A stretch of DNA of 64,000 bases, taken from positions 248,001 through 312,000 of the forward strand of contig CANMPP010000001.1 of the NCBI GenBank assembly GCA_947499735.1, written 5' to 3'. Below are positions 2,861-58,861 of the stretch, one piece after another. Under the pieces are notes generated by a model. The model was given only the letters and a program-made list of their open reading frames with translations, was not told the origin of the DNA and made no database searches. A program made the translations under genes and the position numbers. Position 1 is the first letter of the stretch. Each line of letters opens with the position of its first letter. Source of the DNA: an uncultured Pelagimonas sp. (GTDB taxonomy: Bacteria; Pseudomonadota; Alphaproteobacteria; Rhodobacterales; Rhodobacteraceae).

Positions 2861-4990
2861 ATGTTCAATGAAGTAAAGAAATCAATCCAGTGGGGTGAAG
2901 AGACCCTGACACTGGAAACAGGTAAGGTTGCCCGTCAGGCGGACGGCACTGTGATCGCCACTTTAGGCGAAACATCTGTCATGGCAAACGTGACATTCGC
3001 CAAATCTCAAAAAGAAGGTCAGGACTTTTTTCCGCTGACCGTTCATTACCAAGAAAAATACTACGCCGCCGGTAAAATCCCTGGCGGTTTTTTCAAGCGT
3101 GAAGCACGTCCTTCCGAAAAGGAAACACTGACAGCGCGTTTGATCGACCGTCCGATCCGTCCACTATTCGTACCTGGCTTCAAAAACGAAGTTCTGGTCA
3201 TGTGTACAGTTCTGAGCCACGATCTGGTCAATGACCCAGACATCGTTGCGATGATCGCGGCCTCTGCTGCGTTGACCATTTCTGGCGCGCCATTCCGTGG
3301 CCCAATCGGCGCTTGCCGTGTTGGCTTTGAAGATGGCGAATATGTGTTGAACCCAACCGTTGACGATATGGATCAGCTGCGTCTGAACCCAGAGCAGCGT
3401 TTGGATCTGGTTGTTGCGGGCACAAAAGACGCCGTGATGATGGTTGAATCCGAAGCTTACGAGCTGACAGAAGAAGAAATGTTGGGCGCGGTTACATTTG
3501 CGCATGAGCAACTTCAACCGGTTATCGATTGCATCATCGATCTGGCAGAAGACGCGGCAAACGAGCCATTTGAATTCGTCGCACCTGACTATTCCGAGCT
3601 GTTCGAAGCCGTCAAAGCGGCTGGCGAAGCGAAGATGGCAGAAGCCTACGCGATTGCTGACAAGCAAGAGCGCGTTGCGGCAGTAGGTGCCGTAAAAGAA
3701 GCGATCATCGTATCCCTGACGGATGAGCAGAAAGAAGATGCAAATCTTGGTTCCGCTCTGAAGAAACTGGAATCCGGTGTTCTGCGCGGCGATGTTGTCA
3801 AGAATTCTCGCCGTATCGACGGTCGTGCGCTGGACGAAATCCGCGACATCGATGTGCAAACTGGCCTTCTGCCACGGACACACGGTTCTGCTTTGTTCAC
3901 ACGCGGTGAAACACAAGGTTTGGTTGTGACCACGCTGGGTACAGGTGACGATGAGCAAATCATCGACGCGCTGCATGGCAATTCCCGTTCCAACTTCTTG
4001 CTGCACTATAACTTCCCTCCATACTCTGTGGGTGAAGTTGGCCGCGTTGGATCCCCTGGTCGCCGTGAAATTGGCCACGGTAAACTGGCATGGCGCGCGC
4101 TGCAGGCGGTTCTGCCAGCACCAACAGATTTCCCATACACCGTTCGCGTTGTGTCTGAGATCACTGAATCCAACGGTTCGTCTTCCATGGCGTCTGTCTG
4201 TGGTGGTTCCTTGTCCATGATGGATGCAGGCGTTCCATTGAAAGCACCTGTTGCAGGTGTTGCGATGGGTCTGGTTCTGGAAGAAGACGGTTCCTACGCG
4301 GTTCTGTCCGATATCTTGGGTGACGAAGATCACTTGGGTGATATGGACTTTAAAGTGGCCGGTACAGAAGCAGGTATCACATCGCTGCAAATGGACATCA
4401 AGGTTGCAGGCATCACGCCTGAAATCATGAGCAAAGCCTTGGCTCAGGCCAAAGCGGGTCGTTTGCACATCTTGGGCGAAATGGCCAAAGGCCTGTCCGA
4501 AGTGAACCAATTCTCCGCACATGCACCACGTATCGAAACGATGAACATTCCAACGGACAAAATCCGTGAAGTCATCGGTTCCGGTGGTAAAGTGATCCGT
4601 GAGATCGTTGAAACATCCGGTGCAAAAGTCGACATCAATGATGACGGCGTGATCAAAATCGCATCTTCCGATGGCGAAGCGATCAAGAAAGCCTATGACA
4701 TGATCTGGTCCATCGTGGCCGAGCCAGAAGAAGGCGAGATCTACAAAGGTAAAGTCGTCAAAATCGTCGATTTCGGTGCCTTCGTGAACTTCTTTGGCAA
4801 ACGCGACGGTCTGGTCCACGTATCCCAAATCGAAAACCGCCGCCTGAACCACCCATCTGACGTTCTGAAAGAAGGTCAGGAAGTGTTCGTGAAGCTTCTT
4901 GGCTTTGATGATCGCGGTAAGGTGCGTTTGGCCATGAAAATGGTTGATCAGGCGACAGGCACAGAAGCTACGGAAGCCGCAGAAGAGTAA
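2861..4990 (+). CDS. pnp: polyribonucleotide nucleotidyltransferase (PNPase)
   Basis: A 709-residue 3'-5' phosphorolytic exoribonuclease of RNA turnover. Two RNase PH-like domains are joined by a helical linker; a KH domain begins near residue 560 ([14 protein letters not shown]) and an S1 domain near residue 623 ([17 protein letters not shown]). The start at 2861 ([12 protein letters not shown]) is the family start and has a purine-rich stretch (tagga, 2848-2852) in front; an in-frame ATG 81 bp upstream is less likely. The gene is richer in preferred codons than its neighbours, as expected for a highly expressed gene. A terminator follows at 5014. Confidence 0.98.
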
Positions 4991-51910: not shown

Positions 51911-52432
51911 TTAGAACAGCATTATGTCGTTTGCAGGCTTTGGTGCTGGAACTGGAGATACTGGTGCGATTTTCTCAACGTCGCCTGGAACCAGGAATTG
52001 TTGCGCTTTGCCAGTTACGGGATAAAATCGAACTTTGCGCGCTTCAAATCCGCCGCAGCTTTCCGCGATGATTTTGATCCCTTCATCGGATAGAAAATCA
52101 TGCGCAAATTCAATATTCTTGCCACCAATATTCTGCTTGAACTTTGTCATCGAAGCACCACCAAAAATCTTGGCGACCATACGATCTTTGGACGCTCCAT
52201 CTTTCAAAAGAGCATTGATCAAGAGTTCCATTGAAAACGCGCCAAAACGTTCGTTGTTGCCCGCTTCGCCGTCCCGCTTTGGTAACAAAAAATGGTTCAT
52301 TCCGCCAATGCCTGTAACGGCATCATGTAGGCAAACTGAAATACACGATCCTAGAACAGTGGTCATGACACAAGCAGGGTCGCGAGAAATTGCGAATTCT
52401 CCTTGGATCACATTTACGATCGTTTCTTGCAT
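51911..52432 (-). CDS. cheD: chemoreceptor glutamine deamidase CheD
   Basis: A 173-residue protein. The catalytic Cys and His are in VLGSCISVCLHD and GGMNHFLLP (about residues 27-50), as in CheD, which deamidates receptor glutamines and can interact with CheC/CheY systems. A Pro-rich tail is unusual (PVSPVPAPKPA). Last gene of the che operon, 3 bp after cheB. Confidence 0.92.
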   Translation of the reverse strand: MQETIVNVIQGEFAISRDPACVMTTVLGSCISVCLHDAVTGIGGMNHFLLPKRDGEAGNNERFGAFSMELLINALLKDGASKDRMVAKIFGGASMTKFKQNIGGKNIEFAHDFLSDEGIKIIAESCGGFEARKVRFYPVTGKAQQFLVPGDVEKIAPVSPVPAPKPANDIMLF

Positions 52433-52435
52433 AAT

Positions 52436-53473
52436 TTAAGCTTGCCTTTTTGACGTTTGATTGAAGGGGATCTCGCTTGCTTCTAAGAGAGCAGGCCCTA
52501 TTTGAGGGAGTGGTAGAATGTGTTGCGCACCACCTGCTTCTGCAGCCGATCTTGGCATTCCAGCCACGACCGATGTTTCTTCATCCTGAACAAGTGTCAA
52601 AGCGCCTTGATCACGAAGCGCCTTCAACCCGTCGGCACCATCTCTCCCCATCCCTGTCAGAACTGCCGCTACGCATTTCTTTGCGTGTCGAGTTGCCGAC
52701 ATAAACAGCGCGTCAACAGATGGTTGGTGCCCACTGATGTCGTCGCCAGGCTCCAAACGAACTTTTCGTGGGTCCTTTTCACAGATCCTTAGATGTGCTC
52801 CGGTTCCAGCGCCAATGATAATCTTGCCGGGTTCAATATCCATGCCGTCTTCGGCCAACACGACTCTGGGCGTGCATTGTCGCTCCAAAAGCGTTGCTAA
52901 ACTATCTCCAAACCCATAGCCGGTGTGCTGCACAACAAGGGTTGGGGGGCAAGAGTTCGGAAAATGCCCCAATACTTCCAATAGTGCATCCACGCCGCCT
53001 GTCGAGGATCCGATTAGGACCATCCGCTGGCTGTTGTTTAAGGTGTTTCCTGCAGCTGTCGTTCCCAACGCGGCTGTTGCCCTTTGATGTCGCGGTGAAA
53101 GAGAAAGAGAGACTAAGCTTTGAGCTATTTGATCGACAGGTGTTGCTATACCTAATTCGAAAAGACCTGATTTCAATGCTGACCATTTCGCCGAATTCGA
53201 TGCTGTACCTGTCTGATCAAATCCTGAAACGACAAGCCACCGAACATCGAGTTGATTGAAAATGGCATACATAACCTCAAACTCGTCTAATTTTGCAAAT
53301 GTATCTGCAATCAGAACTGTTTTAGGCTCATGATCCTCAACGACATTATAGGTATTCATAAGGTCAGATGTTACCGCAATAATGCGAAAGCGCGGGTCCT
53401 TTTGCAGTCCTGCAAGAATTCTCGCGCGTTCAGGAGTGTTGGGCATTGCGATGACAAGTGACGTTGGGGACAT
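52436..53473 (-). CDS. cheB: protein-glutamate methylesterase CheB with degenerate receiver domain
   Basis: A 345-residue protein. The C-terminal methylesterase domain is intact: IGSSTGG (Ser157), VQHTGYG (His183) and LTGMGRDG (Asp278). The N-terminal receiver-like domain keeps an Asp at position 57 (LIADTF) but the acidic pair at the end of beta-1 is replaced (VIAMPNTPE, where CheB has VDDS), and the usual switch Lys is not evident. It is therefore unlikely to be phosphorylated by CheA in the normal way. It follows the 123-residue unknown gene after 46 bp. Confidence 0.92.
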   Translation of the reverse strand: MSPTSLVIAMPNTPERARILAGLQKDPRFRIIAVTSDLMNTYNVVEDHEPKTVLIADTFAKLDEFEVMYAIFNQLDVRWLVVSGFDQTGTASNSAKWSALKSGLFELGIATPVDQIAQSLVSLSLSPRHQRATAALGTTAAGNTLNNSQRMVLIGSSTGGVDALLEVLGHFPNSCPPTLVVQHTGYGFGDSLATLLERQCTPRVVLAEDGMDIEPGKIIIGAGTGAHLRICEKDPRKVRLEPGDDISGHQPSVDALFMSATRHAKKCVAAVLTGMGRDGADGLKALRDQGALTLVQDEETSVVAGMPRSAAEAGGAQHILPLPQIGPALLEASEIPFNQTSKRQA

Positions 53474-53519: not shown

Positions 53520-53891
53520 CTAGAAAAGATCTGGCTCAGAAGAATGAATACCTGTTTCATCATCCAAAGGTTGCCCGGAAAGTTTCAATGCCAAATCTCT
53601 AAGAGGTATCTCGGAAATTGCGTTTCCAAGATCAATTTTAACTTCCTCGGACAGGCTCTGCGATAATGCCAACGTGTAAGTTGACAGTGCGTTTGCGTAT
53701 TGCAAAGCAAAGTCCAGTTCCTGCAACGATCGCGCAGCCTGATGGACGACGCTTTGCTCAGAAGTCTCACAAAGCTCGACGACACCCGTTTCTATTTTGG
53801 AGATCCGTTCAGATAAGCTGGATAGCTCGCGCCCTACCAAGTACACCGCATAAGGTGCTGGTAGAGCAACGGACTCTTTATTTGTTGTCAT
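53520..53891 (-). CDS. unknown helical chemotaxis-operon protein with DxxxQ motif
   Basis: A 123-residue protein, mostly helical in appearance, with no membrane segment or signal. I do not recognise a named family. Near the middle, ARSLQELDFALQYANAL holds Asp60 and Gln64 in the DxxxQ spacing that marks the catalytic pair of CheZ, the CheY-P phosphatase, and of the CheZ-like CheT described in Sinorhizobium. It starts by ATGA overlap with cheY and precedes cheB, in an operon that lacks cheZ, cheC and cheX. A phosphatase role is a hypothesis only. The longer frame start at 53918 is rejected because the overlap start fits better. Confidence 0.7.
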   Translation of the reverse strand: MTTNKESVALPAPYAVYLVGRELSSLSERISKIETGVVELCETSEQSVVHQAARSLQELDFALQYANALSTYTLALSQSLSEEVKIDLGNAISEIPLRDLALKLSGQPLDDETGIHSSEPDLF

Positions 53892-54274
53892 AATTTGCCC
53901 ACGACACTTTCGATGCACTGCTTCATAGATGCAGAAGTGAAGGGCTTTTTGATCATATTGTTGAGCCCTAATTGTTTTGCTTGCGCAACAATCTCTGGTG
54001 TGGGTTTGCCTGTGACGAGGATAAATCCGAGCTTCTGTGTTGCTGGAGTGGTTCGCACAGCCTTCAAAAGGCCCAGACCATCCATCCCGGGCATGTTGTA
54101 GTCAGATAAAATTAGGTGGACAGGTGTAGACGCAAGCCTAGCATTCGCCTTTACGCCGTCGCTCTCTGTCACATAATTCTTAATGCCTATTTCATCTAGT
54201 GCTTGGGTTATGAGACCTCGGCTTGTAGCCATATCGTCAACGACCATAACGCGTAATTGTTCTTTTAAGGACAT
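53888..54274 (-). CDS. cheY: chemotaxis response regulator CheY (second copy)
   Basis: A 128-residue single-domain receiver: acidic pair in VMVVDDMATSR, phospho-Asp58 (LILSDYNMPGMDG), Thr in LVTGKPTPE and switch Lys in IKKPFTSAS. The size and NMPGMDG pattern match motor-binding or phosphate-sink CheY proteins of Alphaproteobacteria. It is 27 bp after cheR and overlaps the next gene by 4 bp. Confidence 0.93.
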   Translation of the reverse strand: MSLKEQLRVMVVDDMATSRGLITQALDEIGIKNYVTESDGVKANARLASTPVHLILSDYNMPGMDGLGLLKAVRTTPATQKLGFILVTGKPTPEIVAQAKQLGLNNMIKKPFTSASMKQCIESVVGKL

Positions 54275-54301: not shown

Positions 54302-55129
54302 TCAGATCTTCTGATATGATGTGACGCCAACATTCTTTAGTTGGCTTGTGGCTGGTCCAGATAGTCTTTCGGAGTGACCGATGCACAAGATGCCGCCTGG
54401 GCACAACATGTCAGCGAAACGTTGCCACAAGACCTTTTGAGTTTCTGTGTCAAAGTAAATTGTTACATTTCTGCAAAATATTGCATCGAAAGGTCCTTTG
54501 AACGGCCATTGTTCAATGAGATTTAGTTGCGCAAATGAAATCAGGCTTCTAACTGTTTCACACATAGCAAATGTCTCAGTTTGATCGGCTGTATCTTTGG
54601 TGTACTTCTTCTTATCAGCGGGAATGCTTTCTAAGACTTCTTTGGAATAAATCCCTCTTTGTGCTGTCTCGAGTATCTTCTGATCAATGTCTGTTGCCAA
54701 CAGCTTAACGTCTCTGTGGGAGCTGTTGCCCAGTGCATCCAAGGTGGTCATTGCCATTGAGTAGGGTTCTTGACCAGAAGAACAGCCAGCACTCCACAGT
54801 CGAATTCTGCTTTCGCCGGATTTTTTTTCGGAAAGATGATCCGTTAGATATTCGAAGTGATGCGGTTCTCTAAAAAAACTGGTGACATTAGTTGTAAGTG
54901 CAGTGATTAGGTGGTTTTTCTCTTCTAGATCACCTTTCTTGACGATGTTCTCCAGATAAACGGGAATTGAGTCGATGTTCTTCGCACTTAGTCTTTTCGA
55001 CAGCCTAGAGGCGATTAATGCTTTCTTGCCTTTAAGGAGGTTTAACCCAAACTCCTGTTTTGCAAGTTTTGCAATCATGTCGAAATCTCCATCACTCATG
55101 GAGAAGTTATGGTTGGCTCTTTCTGTCAC
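54302..55129 (-). CDS. cheR: chemotaxis protein methyltransferase CheR
   Basis: A 275-residue protein. The N-terminal helical domain has KGKKALIASRLSKRL; the catalytic domain has TTNVTSFFREPHHFEYL, the SAM-binding WSAGCSSGQEPYS and ATDIDQKILETA. It methylates receptor glutamates with S-adenosylmethionine. The GTG start at 55129 overlaps the cheW stop by 4 bp (GTGA). Confidence 0.94.
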   Translation of the reverse strand: MTERANHNFSMSDGDFDMIAKLAKQEFGLNLLKGKKALIASRLSKRLSAKNIDSIPVYLENIVKKGDLEEKNHLITALTTNVTSFFREPHHFEYLTDHLSEKKSGESRIRLWSAGCSSGQEPYSMAMTTLDALGNSSHRDVKLLATDIDQKILETAQRGIYSKEVLESIPADKKKYTKDTADQTETFAMCETVRSLISFAQLNLIEQWPFKGPFDAIFCRNVTIYFDTETQKVLWQRFADMLCPGGILCIGHSERLSGPATSQLKNVGVTSYQKI

Positions 55130-55593
55130 GCGGGAGTTCCTGGATCTTTTTCGAGAACCGCTTCAAGGTTTACGACACGCACCATGGCTTCCTCAACGGA
55201 TATAACACCAAGAATGCTTTGGCGTGTGGCTTCAGATTTGATATCTGGTGTCTCTTGTATTGCAGAAGTTTCCACAGAAAGAATTTCAGAAACAGATTCC
55301 ACCAATAGTCCGATGGTTGTGCCTGAGGCTGAGGCGACGATTACGACATTGCGCTCGCTGTCTTGTGTAGAGCCAAGATTGAACTTTGCGGCCAGATCGA
55401 AAATCGGAATAACCGCTCCGCGCAAATTCATTACGCCTAAGACGTCATTAGGTGTATGGGGCAAGGCCGTTACTGGTGTCCAGCGTCGGATCTCTCGGAT
55501 TTGCGTGATTTCCAAACAGAAATTCTGACCACCTGCCGAGAATGTTATAAACTCAAAAAGGGAGCTGGTTGTTTCTTCAACGGTATCAAGCAT
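55126..55593 (-). CDS. cheW: chemotaxis coupling protein CheW
   Basis: A 155-residue SH3-like adaptor that joins receptors to CheA. Matching segments are FITFSAGGQNFCLEITQIREIRRW, GVMNLRGAVIPIFDL and ASGTTIGLLVESVSEI (seen in parts: NLRGAVIPIFDL and VESVSEIL). Its start lies inside the end of cheA (8-bp overlap). Confidence 0.95.
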   Translation of the reverse strand: MLDTVEETTSSLFEFITFSAGGQNFCLEITQIREIRRWTPVTALPHTPNDVLGVMNLRGAVIPIFDLAAKFNLGSTQDSERNVVIVASASGTTIGLLVESVSEILSVETSAIQETPDIKSEATRQSILGVISVEEAMVRVVNLEAVLEKDPGTPA

Positions 55594-57793
55594 GTCGGTT
55601 ATCCATTTGTAGTTCTTTTAAAATTTCACTCTTGTTTTGAGACGGTGACAAATTGACAATTTCTTCTGGGTCCAAAATGAGGGCGATTTTGCCATCTCCC
55701 AGAATTGTGGCAGCTGATACACCTTTGATGGCGCCGTAGTTACTTTCCAAACTTTTAATTACCACTTGCCGTTGATCATGGATTGCATCTACGCGTAGCG
55801 CGGTAAGACCTTGTCTTTCTGTTGCTACGAGTAGCAATACTCCAATACCGTTGTCGCTTTCGCCCTGACTAAAGCCAAGGTTCTTGGAAACGTCTACGAT
55901 AGGTACATAGGAACCACGTACAGAAATGACCTTTCCATTTGTGCCGATAGCCTGAATGTCTTTGGGGTTTGGCCGAATTGTTTCCAATATTGTTGAGATA
56001 GGAATGACCATTGTTTGGTCTGCTGCGGAAATAACGAAACCGTCCATGACCGCCAGTGTCAAAGGCAATACAATTGCGAATGTCGTACCTTGTCCTGGCA
56101 CTGAGGTTATGGAAATTCTTCCGCCCAAAGCCACGACAGCATTTTTTACAACGTCCATCCCGACGCCGCGTCCTGACAAATTGGAGACCGTACTTGCTGT
56201 TGAGAAACCAGGGAGGAATAGAAGGTTGTCAATCTCTTGTTCCGAAAGGTCCGCCTCCTCTGGAACCAAGCCTTTTTCTTTGGCTTTTTCCAAAATTTTC
56301 TCGCGATTTAGACCTGCACCATCATCAGAAATTTCGATGAAAACACTGCCTGAGCGATGCGACGCGGATAGGCGAATGGTTCCTTGTGGTTCTTTGCCCA
56401 ACTCAGCACGTCGTTCCGGCGTTTCAATGCCGTGATCTACTGAGTTGCGAACCATGTGGGTTAGTGGGTCTGCTAGACGTTCAATAACTGTTTTATCGAC
56501 TTCGGTACTGTCACCAACAGTCACCATTTTGGCTTTTTTGTTGGTGGCATCTGAGGCTTCCCGAACAATTCGAGACATACGCTGGAAAAGCGGCTTCACA
56601 GGTTGTGCTCGGATCGCCATCACACCTTCCTGAATGTCGCGCGCAAGCAGCTTATAAGACTCAAGCTCATTCGTCAGATGTGCGACGGTTGGAAGGTCGA
56701 GTTCTTCAATCCGTTGGGAAATCATCGCTTGGTTGATGATCAGTTCGCCAACCGTATTGATGAGGCGATCCACGCGATCTAGGTCGACGCGCAAAGTCGC
56801 CTTTGGCCCTTTGGGCTCAGAAGAACCGCCACTTGCTTGTTTAGCGGCGGGTTTTGCGGCTGCGGCCTTTGCTGGAGCAGAGGATTTAGAGCTTTCTGAA
56901 GCAGCAGTAGGCGTTGCATCAGGGGAACCGGTAATAGGCGCTTGTGCTGGTTGCTCCGATGGTGTCTCAGCGGGAGCCGAAGCCGCTGGATTGTCCAAAG
57001 GAGCTTCAGCTAAAGGGGCCGTGGCTGCAACCTCTTCTACAGAGATTTCTAGCTCACATAGTCCTTCAACAAATTCGAAAACATCGTGCAGCGTTGTCTC
57101 ACTTTCACTCGTGATGAGTTCAAGCTTCCAAGACATAACGGCACTGTTTGGATCAAAACTATCAAATTCTGGTAGATTTCCGAGATCTGCTTCACAGGTC
57201 AGATCACCTAATTCATTGAGTGCATCAAACAGCAGAAGCGGTTCGTGCCCATTTGAGAATAGGGACGGTTTTGGAGCGAAGGAGATGCTGAACTTGTGCG
57301 CTTGTCCGTCTGACGGAGCAATATCGCCACCAAGATCCAACTCAATTGTTGGGCCGGCATTTGGATTATCGACATCGAACGAAAGAGCGTCAAAAGAAAA
57401 CTCTTCTTCCTCCTCGTCGCCGAGATAGGCTTCCAACTCTTTTAGAATTGCGGCCCCGCCGTCGCCTTCCAAGGGCGTGTCATCACGCGCGGATTCGACC
57501 AAATTTGCGAGTTGGTCACCAGCACGGTGGAAAATTTGGATAAGCGTATCGTCAACGGCCAGCTTTTGATCCCGAACCATGTCGAGAACGGTTTCGAACG
57601 TGTGTGCGAAGTGAACCAGTTCATCCAAGCCGAACGCACCGGCGCCGCCTTTGATAGAGTGAGCCGCGCGGAAAACCGCGTTGACCACGTCTGAGCTATG
57701 GTCATCGTCTTCCATTTGAGAAAGACCTTCGACGAGAGCTTCAAGAAGCTCTTCGCATTCTTCAAAAAATGTATCGCGAATAGAATTTGACAT
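55586..57793 (-). CDS. cheA: chemotaxis histidine kinase CheA
   Basis: A 735-residue kinase with the standard domains. P1: phospho-His45 in RAAHSIKGGAG. P2 region about residues 130-260, then an Ala/Pro-rich linker (about 262-330). P3 dimerisation helices about 335-400 (VDRLINTVGELIINQAMI in parts). P4 ATPase with HMVRNSVDHGIE, DDGAGL and GRGVGMDVV. P5 CheW-like domain from about residue 600. It passes receptor signals to CheY. One base separates it from the upstream cheY. Confidence 0.96.
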   Translation of the reverse strand: MSNSIRDTFFEECEELLEALVEGLSQMEDDDHSSDVVNAVFRAAHSIKGGAGAFGLDELVHFAHTFETVLDMVRDQKLAVDDTLIQIFHRAGDQLANLVESARDDTPLEGDGGAAILKELEAYLGDEEEEEFSFDALSFDVDNPNAGPTIELDLGGDIAPSDGQAHKFSISFAPKPSLFSNGHEPLLLFDALNELGDLTCEADLGNLPEFDSFDPNSAVMSWKLELITSESETTLHDVFEFVEGLCELEISVEEVAATAPLAEAPLDNPAASAPAETPSEQPAQAPITGSPDATPTAASESSKSSAPAKAAAAKPAAKQASGGSSEPKGPKATLRVDLDRVDRLINTVGELIINQAMISQRIEELDLPTVAHLTNELESYKLLARDIQEGVMAIRAQPVKPLFQRMSRIVREASDATNKKAKMVTVGDSTEVDKTVIERLADPLTHMVRNSVDHGIETPERRAELGKEPQGTIRLSASHRSGSVFIEISDDGAGLNREKILEKAKEKGLVPEEADLSEQEIDNLLFLPGFSTASTVSNLSGRGVGMDVVKNAVVALGGRISITSVPGQGTTFAIVLPLTLAVMDGFVISAADQTMVIPISTILETIRPNPKDIQAIGTNGKVISVRGSYVPIVDVSKNLGFSQGESDNGIGVLLLVATERQGLTALRVDAIHDQRQVVIKSLESNYGAIKGVSAATILGDGKIALILDPEEIVNLSPSQNKSEILKELQMDNRHA

Positions 57794-57794
57794 G

Positions 57795-58169
57795 TTAGGC
57801 CGCGTGCCCCGTCAGTCTTTGAAGAACCTTTACAAGAGATTCATCATCAAAAGGTTTTACAATCCAACCAGTTGCTCCGGAATCCCGAGCACGGGTTTTC
57901 AAGTTGTCGGAGCTTTCCGTTGTCAGAACGATAATCGGGACTGTTGTTTTAACGGTCTCGCCGCGCAACGTATCGATAACGCCAAAACCATCCATATTTG
58001 GCATGTTGATGTCGGTTATGACGACATCAGGCTCAACTTCAGGGAACATTTCTACGCCTTCGACACCATCACACGCACAGTGAAATTCAAAACCAGCGCC
58101 TTCCAAAGAAACCTTTAGGAGGTTTCGAATGGTTCGAGAGTCATCAATTGCCAAAACTTTGGTCGTCAT
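57795..58169 (-). CDS. cheY: chemotaxis response regulator CheY (first copy)
   Basis: A 124-residue receiver: LAIDDSRTIR, phospho-Asp53 (VVITDINMPNMDG), Thr in VLTTESS and Lys in VKPFDDESL. It sits directly before cheA, the usual place of cheY1 in alphaproteobacterial operons. Start at ATG 58169, 2 bp after the STAS gene stop; a longer frame would overlap that gene. Confidence 0.94.
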   Translation of the reverse strand: MTTKVLAIDDSRTIRNLLKVSLEGAGFEFHCACDGVEGVEMFPEVEPDVVITDINMPNMDGFGVIDTLRGETVKTTVPIIVLTTESSDNLKTRARDSGATGWIVKPFDDESLVKVLQRLTGHAA

Positions 58170-58171
58170 CG

Positions 58172-58450
58172 TTATACATCCTTGTCGAATTGGTGGGGTT
58201 CTACGCCTAATAGCTCCAGGCCTTCGCGGAATTGTTGCGAAACGCCCTTGATCGCAAACCCCTTCCCATCGGTTTCCCACTGCTTTTGGGCAACCAAAAG
58301 AATTTGCAGCCGGTGGGTATCAAGACGTTCTACCGCCTCAACGGAAATTTCTACTGGGCTCTGTCGCGCGCCTAGAAGAAATGGAACAATTGGATCTTCG
58401 CCATTTCGGGCACGGGACCGCTCCATGACATGTCGATGCATATCAGACAT
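58172..58450 (-). CDS. small STAS-domain protein, possibly CheS-like
   Basis: A 92-residue protein with an STAS-like fold: GARQSPVEISVEAVERLDTHRLQILLVAQKQWETDGKGF (seen in parts). The usual phospho-acceptor Ser/Thr at the DSS/DST site is replaced by LDTHR. It is first in the che operon before cheY-cheA, the place of the small gene called orf2/cheS in rhizobia, whose product binds CheA and speeds CheY dephosphorylation. Start at 58450 (MSDMHRHVMERS); 58441 is possible. Confidence 0.75.
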   Translation of the reverse strand: MSDMHRHVMERSRARNGEDPIVPFLLGARQSPVEISVEAVERLDTHRLQILLVAQKQWETDGKGFAIKGVSQQFREGLELLGVEPHQFDKDV

Positions 58451-58861
58451 TTTTGCTCTGTTCCCCTTGCTTTGGGTTGCCAATGGATAGGCAGTCACGA
58501 CTGACGCCTGGCAATAGGGATACGCACGCTCCCTTAACAAAGCGTTCCGAATAGCCAGTTGATGAAGACTTTAGCTATTTCACAATTTGAAAATTAAAAA
58601 TTGTTTTTAGACAAAAGGTTGCGTCTGATTTTAGCTTGGGTTTTTTTGTTTCCAACGGGATTCTATCCCGGTCTGCCACAAAATGAATGATAAAAAGAAA
58701 TTCCAAGACAGAAATCACTTCTTATGATTTCATGTAAACATAAAGGAATTAGGATTGCATTAAGCAAGAATTTTCTTATTGAAAAACTCTGAAATACATT
58801 TCCTAATACATTGATGAGTGCGGTTTCTTAAAATGCATTTCTCAAGTTGCAATAAGCAGCC
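58451..58861. other. AT-rich intergenic region between glpK and the che operon
   Basis: About 410 bp, very AT-rich from 58560 to 58800. It should hold the che promoter on the minus strand and the glpK 3' end. Weak structures only: acaattt/aaattgt at 58582-58604 and cgggat/atcccg near 58657. No gene or RNA recognised. Confidence 0.55.

Follow-up and report, generated by a model that had tools for sequence, protein, structure and literature searches.

CheC, CheX and FliY are CheY~P phosphatases of species without CheZ, and have an alpha/beta fold with an ExxN-type motif. In Rhodobacter sphaeroides, the CheA3 phosphatase is another Rhodobacterales route to dephosphorylate a CheY (PMC6829392). 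The closest described relative of the gene examined here is cheT of Sinorhizobium meliloti, for whose product PMC12654446 reports a DXXXQ motif, a predicted CheZ-like structure, enhanced dephosphorylation of one CheY but not of the other, and the formation of a complex with CheR. The idea of a CheT in Rhodobacterales is not wholly new, since the same paper lists Rhodobacter sphaeroides among the species with CheD, CheS and CheT. A literature search, with subscription papers mostly outside its scope, found no study devoted to CheT in Rhodobacterales. Agbekudzi et al. 2024 (doi 10.1111/mmi.15303) are reported to have identified the phosphate-sink CheY1 as the target of CheT, with a modest effect (decay about doubled), and to have placed CheT-CheR binding in the ten-micromolar range.

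We describe a gene which is, with good confidence, a divergent Rhodobacterales cheT, coding for a predicted CheY~P phosphatase that would act through a triad of Gln, Asp and Gln and thereby end the motor signal. It is a candidate answer to a gap in annotation, namely how the CheY signal ends in alphaproteobacteria that carry this type of operon without CheZ, CheC or CheX.

The che operon and its cheT-like gene

Pfam domains in the window, i.e. the whole stretch of 64,000 nucleotides that was analysed, revealed a che operon on the (-) strand with the gene order STAS(CheS-like)-CheY1-CheA-CheW-CheR-CheY2-T-CheB-CheD. The cheS-like STAS-domain gene (58172..58540, start uncertain) is followed by the receiver gene cheY1 (57795..58169, with the start placed at the Met of MTTKV within a longer ORF, 57795-58280), cheA (55586..57793), cheW (55126..55593), cheR (54302..55129) and a second receiver gene, cheY2 (53888..54274). 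Next come the cheT-like gene (53520..53891), cheB (52436..53473), for which alignment added to Pfam indicates an intact methylesterase and a degenerate receiver, and cheD (51911..52432), whose product ends in -IMLF. The ATG of the cheT-like gene overlaps the stop codon of cheY2 (ATGA), and this overlap is only suggestive as a hint to which CheY the protein acts on.

Over the whole genome, which spans 3.77 Mb and is 98% complete, the only CheA dimerisation domain detected is that of this operon, and CheZ, CheX and CheC gave no match at E<=0.1. The description of the operon in the first-pass annotation, with two CheYs and without CheZ, CheC or CheX, was thus confirmed by Pfam, and the absence holds genome-wide at this threshold. 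The locus differs in this respect from systems relying on CheC, CheX or FliY (PF04509, PF13690), for which the genome has no match, and from that of Rhodobacter sphaeroides, where the CheA3 phosphatase is a domain of a split kinase whereas the present genome has a single CheA.

The cheT-like gene encodes a protein of 123 amino acids, followed by a stop codon, with a predicted helical hairpin (residues 12-43 and 48-79), short C-terminal helices and a flexible tail ending in -SEPDLF. AlphaFold2 run as a single chain on A2, the alignment of relatives described below, gave a mean pLDDT of 87.3 and a pTM of 0.75 with this hairpin, and low confidence for the tail (pLDDT 57 and 63 in the last two blocks). 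Such a hairpin could belong to a four-helix dimer of the CheZ kind. Foldseek returned no match for it at E<=0.001, and the fold-search matches listed (EsxB/EsxA, ESCRT hairpins and designed bundles) are generic hairpins; CheZ was not among the matches listed, which carries no weight either way. As hairpins are common, the fold comparisons with the PDB are uninformative.

The Q-D-Q triad and the relationship to CheT and CheZ

The codons of Q57-E-L-D60-F-A-L-Q64, which hold the triad Q57/D60/Q64, occupy positions 53700..53723 of the (-) strand, as calculated with the start codon placed at 53891. D60-x-x-x-Q64 had been noticed earlier within an apparent long helix; both residues are as described and fall in the second predicted helix (48-79). 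The accompanying caution that so short a motif can arise by chance was well founded: 25.7% of shuffled versions of the protein contain DxxxQ, so that its presence alone is weak evidence; QxxDxxxQ is present in 1% of shuffles. Conservation was assessed from a CheY2 similarity search of a collection with one genome per species (84,980 species), of which the best 80 loci were kept and named. In each of them the ORF directly behind cheY2 was chosen by synteny, without using the motif, and all 80 carry Q57-x-x-D60-x-x-x-Q64, which makes conservation strong evidence. A motif-masked profile picks the same 80 ORFs (76 at E<=0.001), and a pick of the longest ORF behind cheY2 has the motif in 77 of 80, the other three being taken as overlapping frames.

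Keeping loci below 80% identity left 58 of the 80, or 59 sequences with the window protein, and Q57, D60 and Q64 are the only residues invariant in all 59 at a median pairwise identity of 25%. The same three residues alone are invariant in the 57 rows of a second alignment, A2, from which a short ORF (L036) and a 219-aa ORF (L101), both carrying the motif, were left out. Among 22 sequences aligned earlier, 20 of them from genomes of the family and two from named plasmids, E22 and the start Met were invariant as well as the triad. Plotted on a helical wheel, Q57, D60 and Q64 point away from the hydrophobic face, at angles of 129-177 degrees to it, and are thus exposed. Polar residues that are both exposed and unchanging, within a protein that otherwise changes fast, are, we infer, what would be expected of an active site. 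The first-pass annotation had made its proposal depend on the conservation of Asp60 and Gln64 in orthologues, and with both kept in 57 of 57 aligned rows and in 80 of 80 loci the proposal stands. The frequency of DxxxQ in shuffles (26%) would fit a chance motif of an unrelated small operon protein; this reading has a negligible probability and is already refuted by the conservation test, given that the motif never varies in the 80 neighbours chosen by synteny, at an identity of about 25%, and that S. meliloti CheT has DxxxQ at the aligned position.

The NCBIfam CheT model NF047973 matches the window protein with an E value of 7.1e-5 and 22.8 bits, far below its curated cut-off of 200 bits, while CheT of Sinorhizobium sp. 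C101 scores 228 bits. Two S. meliloti records encode a protein with 98.4% identity to the latter. The model matches 41 of the 57 members of A2 at E<=0.01 (best 1e-9), the other 16 having no match at 0.01. Across 240 Alphaproteobacteria genomes it gave two weak matches, one of which was the window protein; this draw evidently held no rhizobial CheT, and the rhizobial references were therefore taken from very large records filed as plasmids. When searched with the A2 profile, the 3.7-Mb record of S. meliloti and the record of Sinorhizobium C101 each yielded CheT as sole match at E<=10 (E 1.9e-15 and 6.6e-16, respectively), and a Shinella record yielded it as best match (E 2.7e-15, the second match having E 0.15). 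With residues 54-66 masked, CheT was still found in S. meliloti (E 1.4e-12), C101 (5e-13) and Shinella (1e-10), these values being on a nominal 4000-protein scale. Additionally, hhalign against S. meliloti CheT gave a probability of 97.5 over 94 columns and matched the two DxxxQ motifs to each other.

Searches with the single window protein found nothing by pairwise BLASTP against S. meliloti CheT, no match in Pfam (CheZ, CheC and CheX included), chance matches only by phmmer against the PDB and four chance matches (E 2-5) by tblastn on plasmids. In 248 genomes of the family, phmmer gave 22 matches; a chemoreceptor (L019) and an unrelated ORF (L021) were dropped from these before an alignment (A1) was built. 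Matches of the A2 profile to PDB sequences were coiled coils and designed helices and were taken as composition matches.

Gene order also links the two systems. In S. meliloti the order is STAS-CheY1-CheA-CheW-CheR-CheB-CheY2-CheD-CheT, with CheT annotated as hypothetical, and the rhizobial arrangement CheB-CheY2-CheD-T is found in one genome of the window's family (L010), and CheB-CheY2-CheD followed by a homologue in two genomes of other families (L116 and L122). The window protein resembles S. meliloti CheT in length (123 versus 124 aa), in carrying LQxxDxxxQ at the aligned place in helix 2, in belonging to the same operon class with CheS, two CheYs and CheD, and in a tail ending in Phe, in addition to the significant profile homology. 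It differs by an identity of about 20%, by a score under the equivalog cut-off of NF047973, and by the position of its gene, which directly follows and overlaps cheY2 while that of S. meliloti follows cheD, the last four genes being reordered. The earlier comparison with CheT is upheld by profile homology and gene order together, and the window protein belongs to a divergent Rhodobacterales branch of the CheT group with about as much certainty as sequence data can give. This branch appears to be new, and its members are probably CheY~P phosphatases.

The comparison with CheZ, made in the same first-pass annotation, fared less evenly: the shared motif and the helical hairpin stood, while no sequence relationship to CheZ was detected by Pfam or hhalign and the fold matches were generic. 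The window protein and E. coli CheZ both carry DxxxQ on a helix of a hairpin, are encoded next to cheY and have a Phe-terminated C-terminus (-DSLGF in CheZ), and such likeness might be expected if the window protein belonged, as a very divergent member, to the CheZ family itself and not to a separate CheT group. We consider this highly improbable, because neither the window protein nor any of the 57 members of A2 matches Pfam CheZ (PF04344), the hhalign probability against E. coli CheZ is 0.2%, and the protein is little over half as long (123 versus 214 aa). The motifs also differ, FQDLTGQ in CheZ against LQxxDxxxQ in CheT-like proteins, where a further invariant Gln stands three positions ahead of the Asp.

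Predicted mode of action and C-terminal tails

The roles proposed for D60 and Q64 are those of CheZ Asp143 and Gln147. The CheT-like protein would probably dimerise into a four-helix bundle, as CheZ does, and dock on phosphorylated CheY, where D60 would hold the receiver in place and Q64 would position the attacking water. Hydrolysis of the aspartyl-phosphate would thus be accelerated and the motor signal ended, in a cell that has a single CheA and two CheYs but lacks CheZ, CheC and CheX. If S. meliloti is a guide, the protein may act on just one CheY and may bind CheR as well. For the window protein, phosphatase activity is a prediction from homology; Q57, D60, Q64 and the tail are the residues that can be named as targets for mutation.

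The codons of the C-terminal -DLF of the cheT-like gene lie at 53523..53531 on the (-) strand and belong to a conserved -[DE]xF end. Among the 80 named loci, the last residue of the CheT-like protein is Phe in 60 and the end is [DE]xF in 50; the Leisingera/Phaeobacter branch has no such tail. This conserved -[DE]LF tail appears to be a new observation on CheT-like proteins. A Phe-ended C-terminus also occurs in 59 of 61 CheDs and in 12 of the 16 receptors of the same loci whose end could be read (for example -WQDF and -WEDF), and in only 0-2 of the 56-85 sequences each of CheS, CheY1, CheA, CheW, CheR, CheY2 and CheB. It is possible that the tails of CheT-like proteins, CheD and receptors share a docking site. 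Receptor pentapeptides bind CheR and CheB, according to PMC7390727 and PMC7698151, and the end of S. meliloti CheT, DFEAF, fits the xZxxZ rule given in PMC7698151. The window tail, -SEPDLF, is unlike that of S. meliloti in not being an xZxxZ pentapeptide, and this definition is met by only 3 of the 80 Rhodobacterales CheT-like tails, which counts against the pentapeptide reading for the window.

A second new observation is that CheB of these operons has a degenerate receiver. An alignment of 53 CheBs of the named loci with that of E. coli shows the catalytic Ser, His and Asp in all 53, and the acidic, metal-binding pair of the receiver is nearly gone, with its first Asp in 2 of 53. The column of E. 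coli Asp56 holds Asp in 13 of 53, and may be shifted, since the window CheB has an Asp one residue later; in the CheB of the window no receiver domain is recognised by Pfam. These CheBs are probably not regulated by phosphorylation, and with so degenerate a receiver the usual feedback of phosphorylation on adaptation is probably absent. If CheB is unphosphorylated, a route from CheY~P through CheT to CheR would be an attractive hypothetical substitute, and dephosphorylation might then be coupled to receptor methylation.

Such a loss of feedback would also suit a CheT homologue that is mainly a non-catalytic adaptor, with the triad binding CheY~P and the tail binding CheR, so that the state of CheY is relayed to the methyltransferase without removal of the phosphate. 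Conservation of -[DE]xF in 50 of 80 loci points the same way, as do the binding of CheR and the distinction between two CheYs reported for S. meliloti CheT in PMC12654446. The same paper reports enhanced dephosphorylation by S. meliloti CheT, however, and both D and Q are invariant at i,i+4, as catalysis would require, while binding surfaces usually tolerate some change; we regard a mainly adaptor role as unlikely. A tentative proposal, to which we give somewhat more room while still doubting it, is that the CheT group acts as a two-headed linker, in which the Q-D-Q triad of the hairpin would dephosphorylate CheY~P and the flexible -[DE]LF tail would dock on the receptor-pentapeptide site of CheR (or CheB), replacing the feedback of CheB~P on receptor methylation in roseobacters, in which most phosphorylation residues of the CheB receiver are gone. 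CheD, which also ends in -xLF, may use the same dock.

Distribution of cheT-like genes

In a profile search of 248 genomes of the family, the cheT-like protein was found in 91 of 112 genomes bearing CheA and in none of the 136 without it. Among the 91 genes, 88 share the strand of CheA and are no more than 8 kb away from it (median 3.0 kb). CheZ was found in 0 of the 248 genomes by a search that recovered the E. coli control. Of the 80 named loci, all 80 have CheR upstream, 79 have CheA, 79 have CheW and 57 have CheS; downstream, 51 have CheB and 55 have CheD. A class search matched 11 of 385 genomes; two of these matches, L121 and the sigma-factor-like ORF L123, lack che neighbours and were taken as false. 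The known range of CheT is thereby widened from the curated rhizobial core to most of the chemotactic genera sampled in Rhodobacteraceae and a few other alphaproteobacterial families.

The profile had no match in 21 of the 112 CheA-bearing genomes, of which 20 were examined at one region each (G027 was left out, and for G039 this was one of four CheA loci); several of the contigs end too early. Four of the 20 (L125, L136, L139 and L144) have a very diverged candidate ORF behind CheY with QxxDxxxQ and an -LF or -MF end. At least six (L128, L131, L132, L134, L137 and L138) have a second operon type, with the order A-W-R-D-B-Y or close to it, in which no cheT-like gene was found next to CheY or nearby; Pfam CheZ was not found in these genomes. 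In L139, a longer QxxDxxxQ protein (168 aa) ending in -IELF is encoded at 2914-3429, behind a different CheA-CheY pair whose CheA is 34% identical to that of the window; this protein is possibly a further relative of CheT.

Phaeobacter inhibens and Leisingera sp. S132 (L026 and L027) carry on a plasmid a che operon with a CheT-like gene annotated as hypothetical; cheB and cheD are on the opposite strand in these operons, and IS21 genes adjoin in Phaeobacter. Rhodobacterales-like che operons were also observed in records titled Enemella evansiae and Nocardioides marinus (L030 and L081). Finally, three 'plasmid' records of 3.5-4.6 Mb (L025, L109 and L110) carry che clusters, one of them also a flagellar cluster, and these five records are probably mislabelled or chromosomes.
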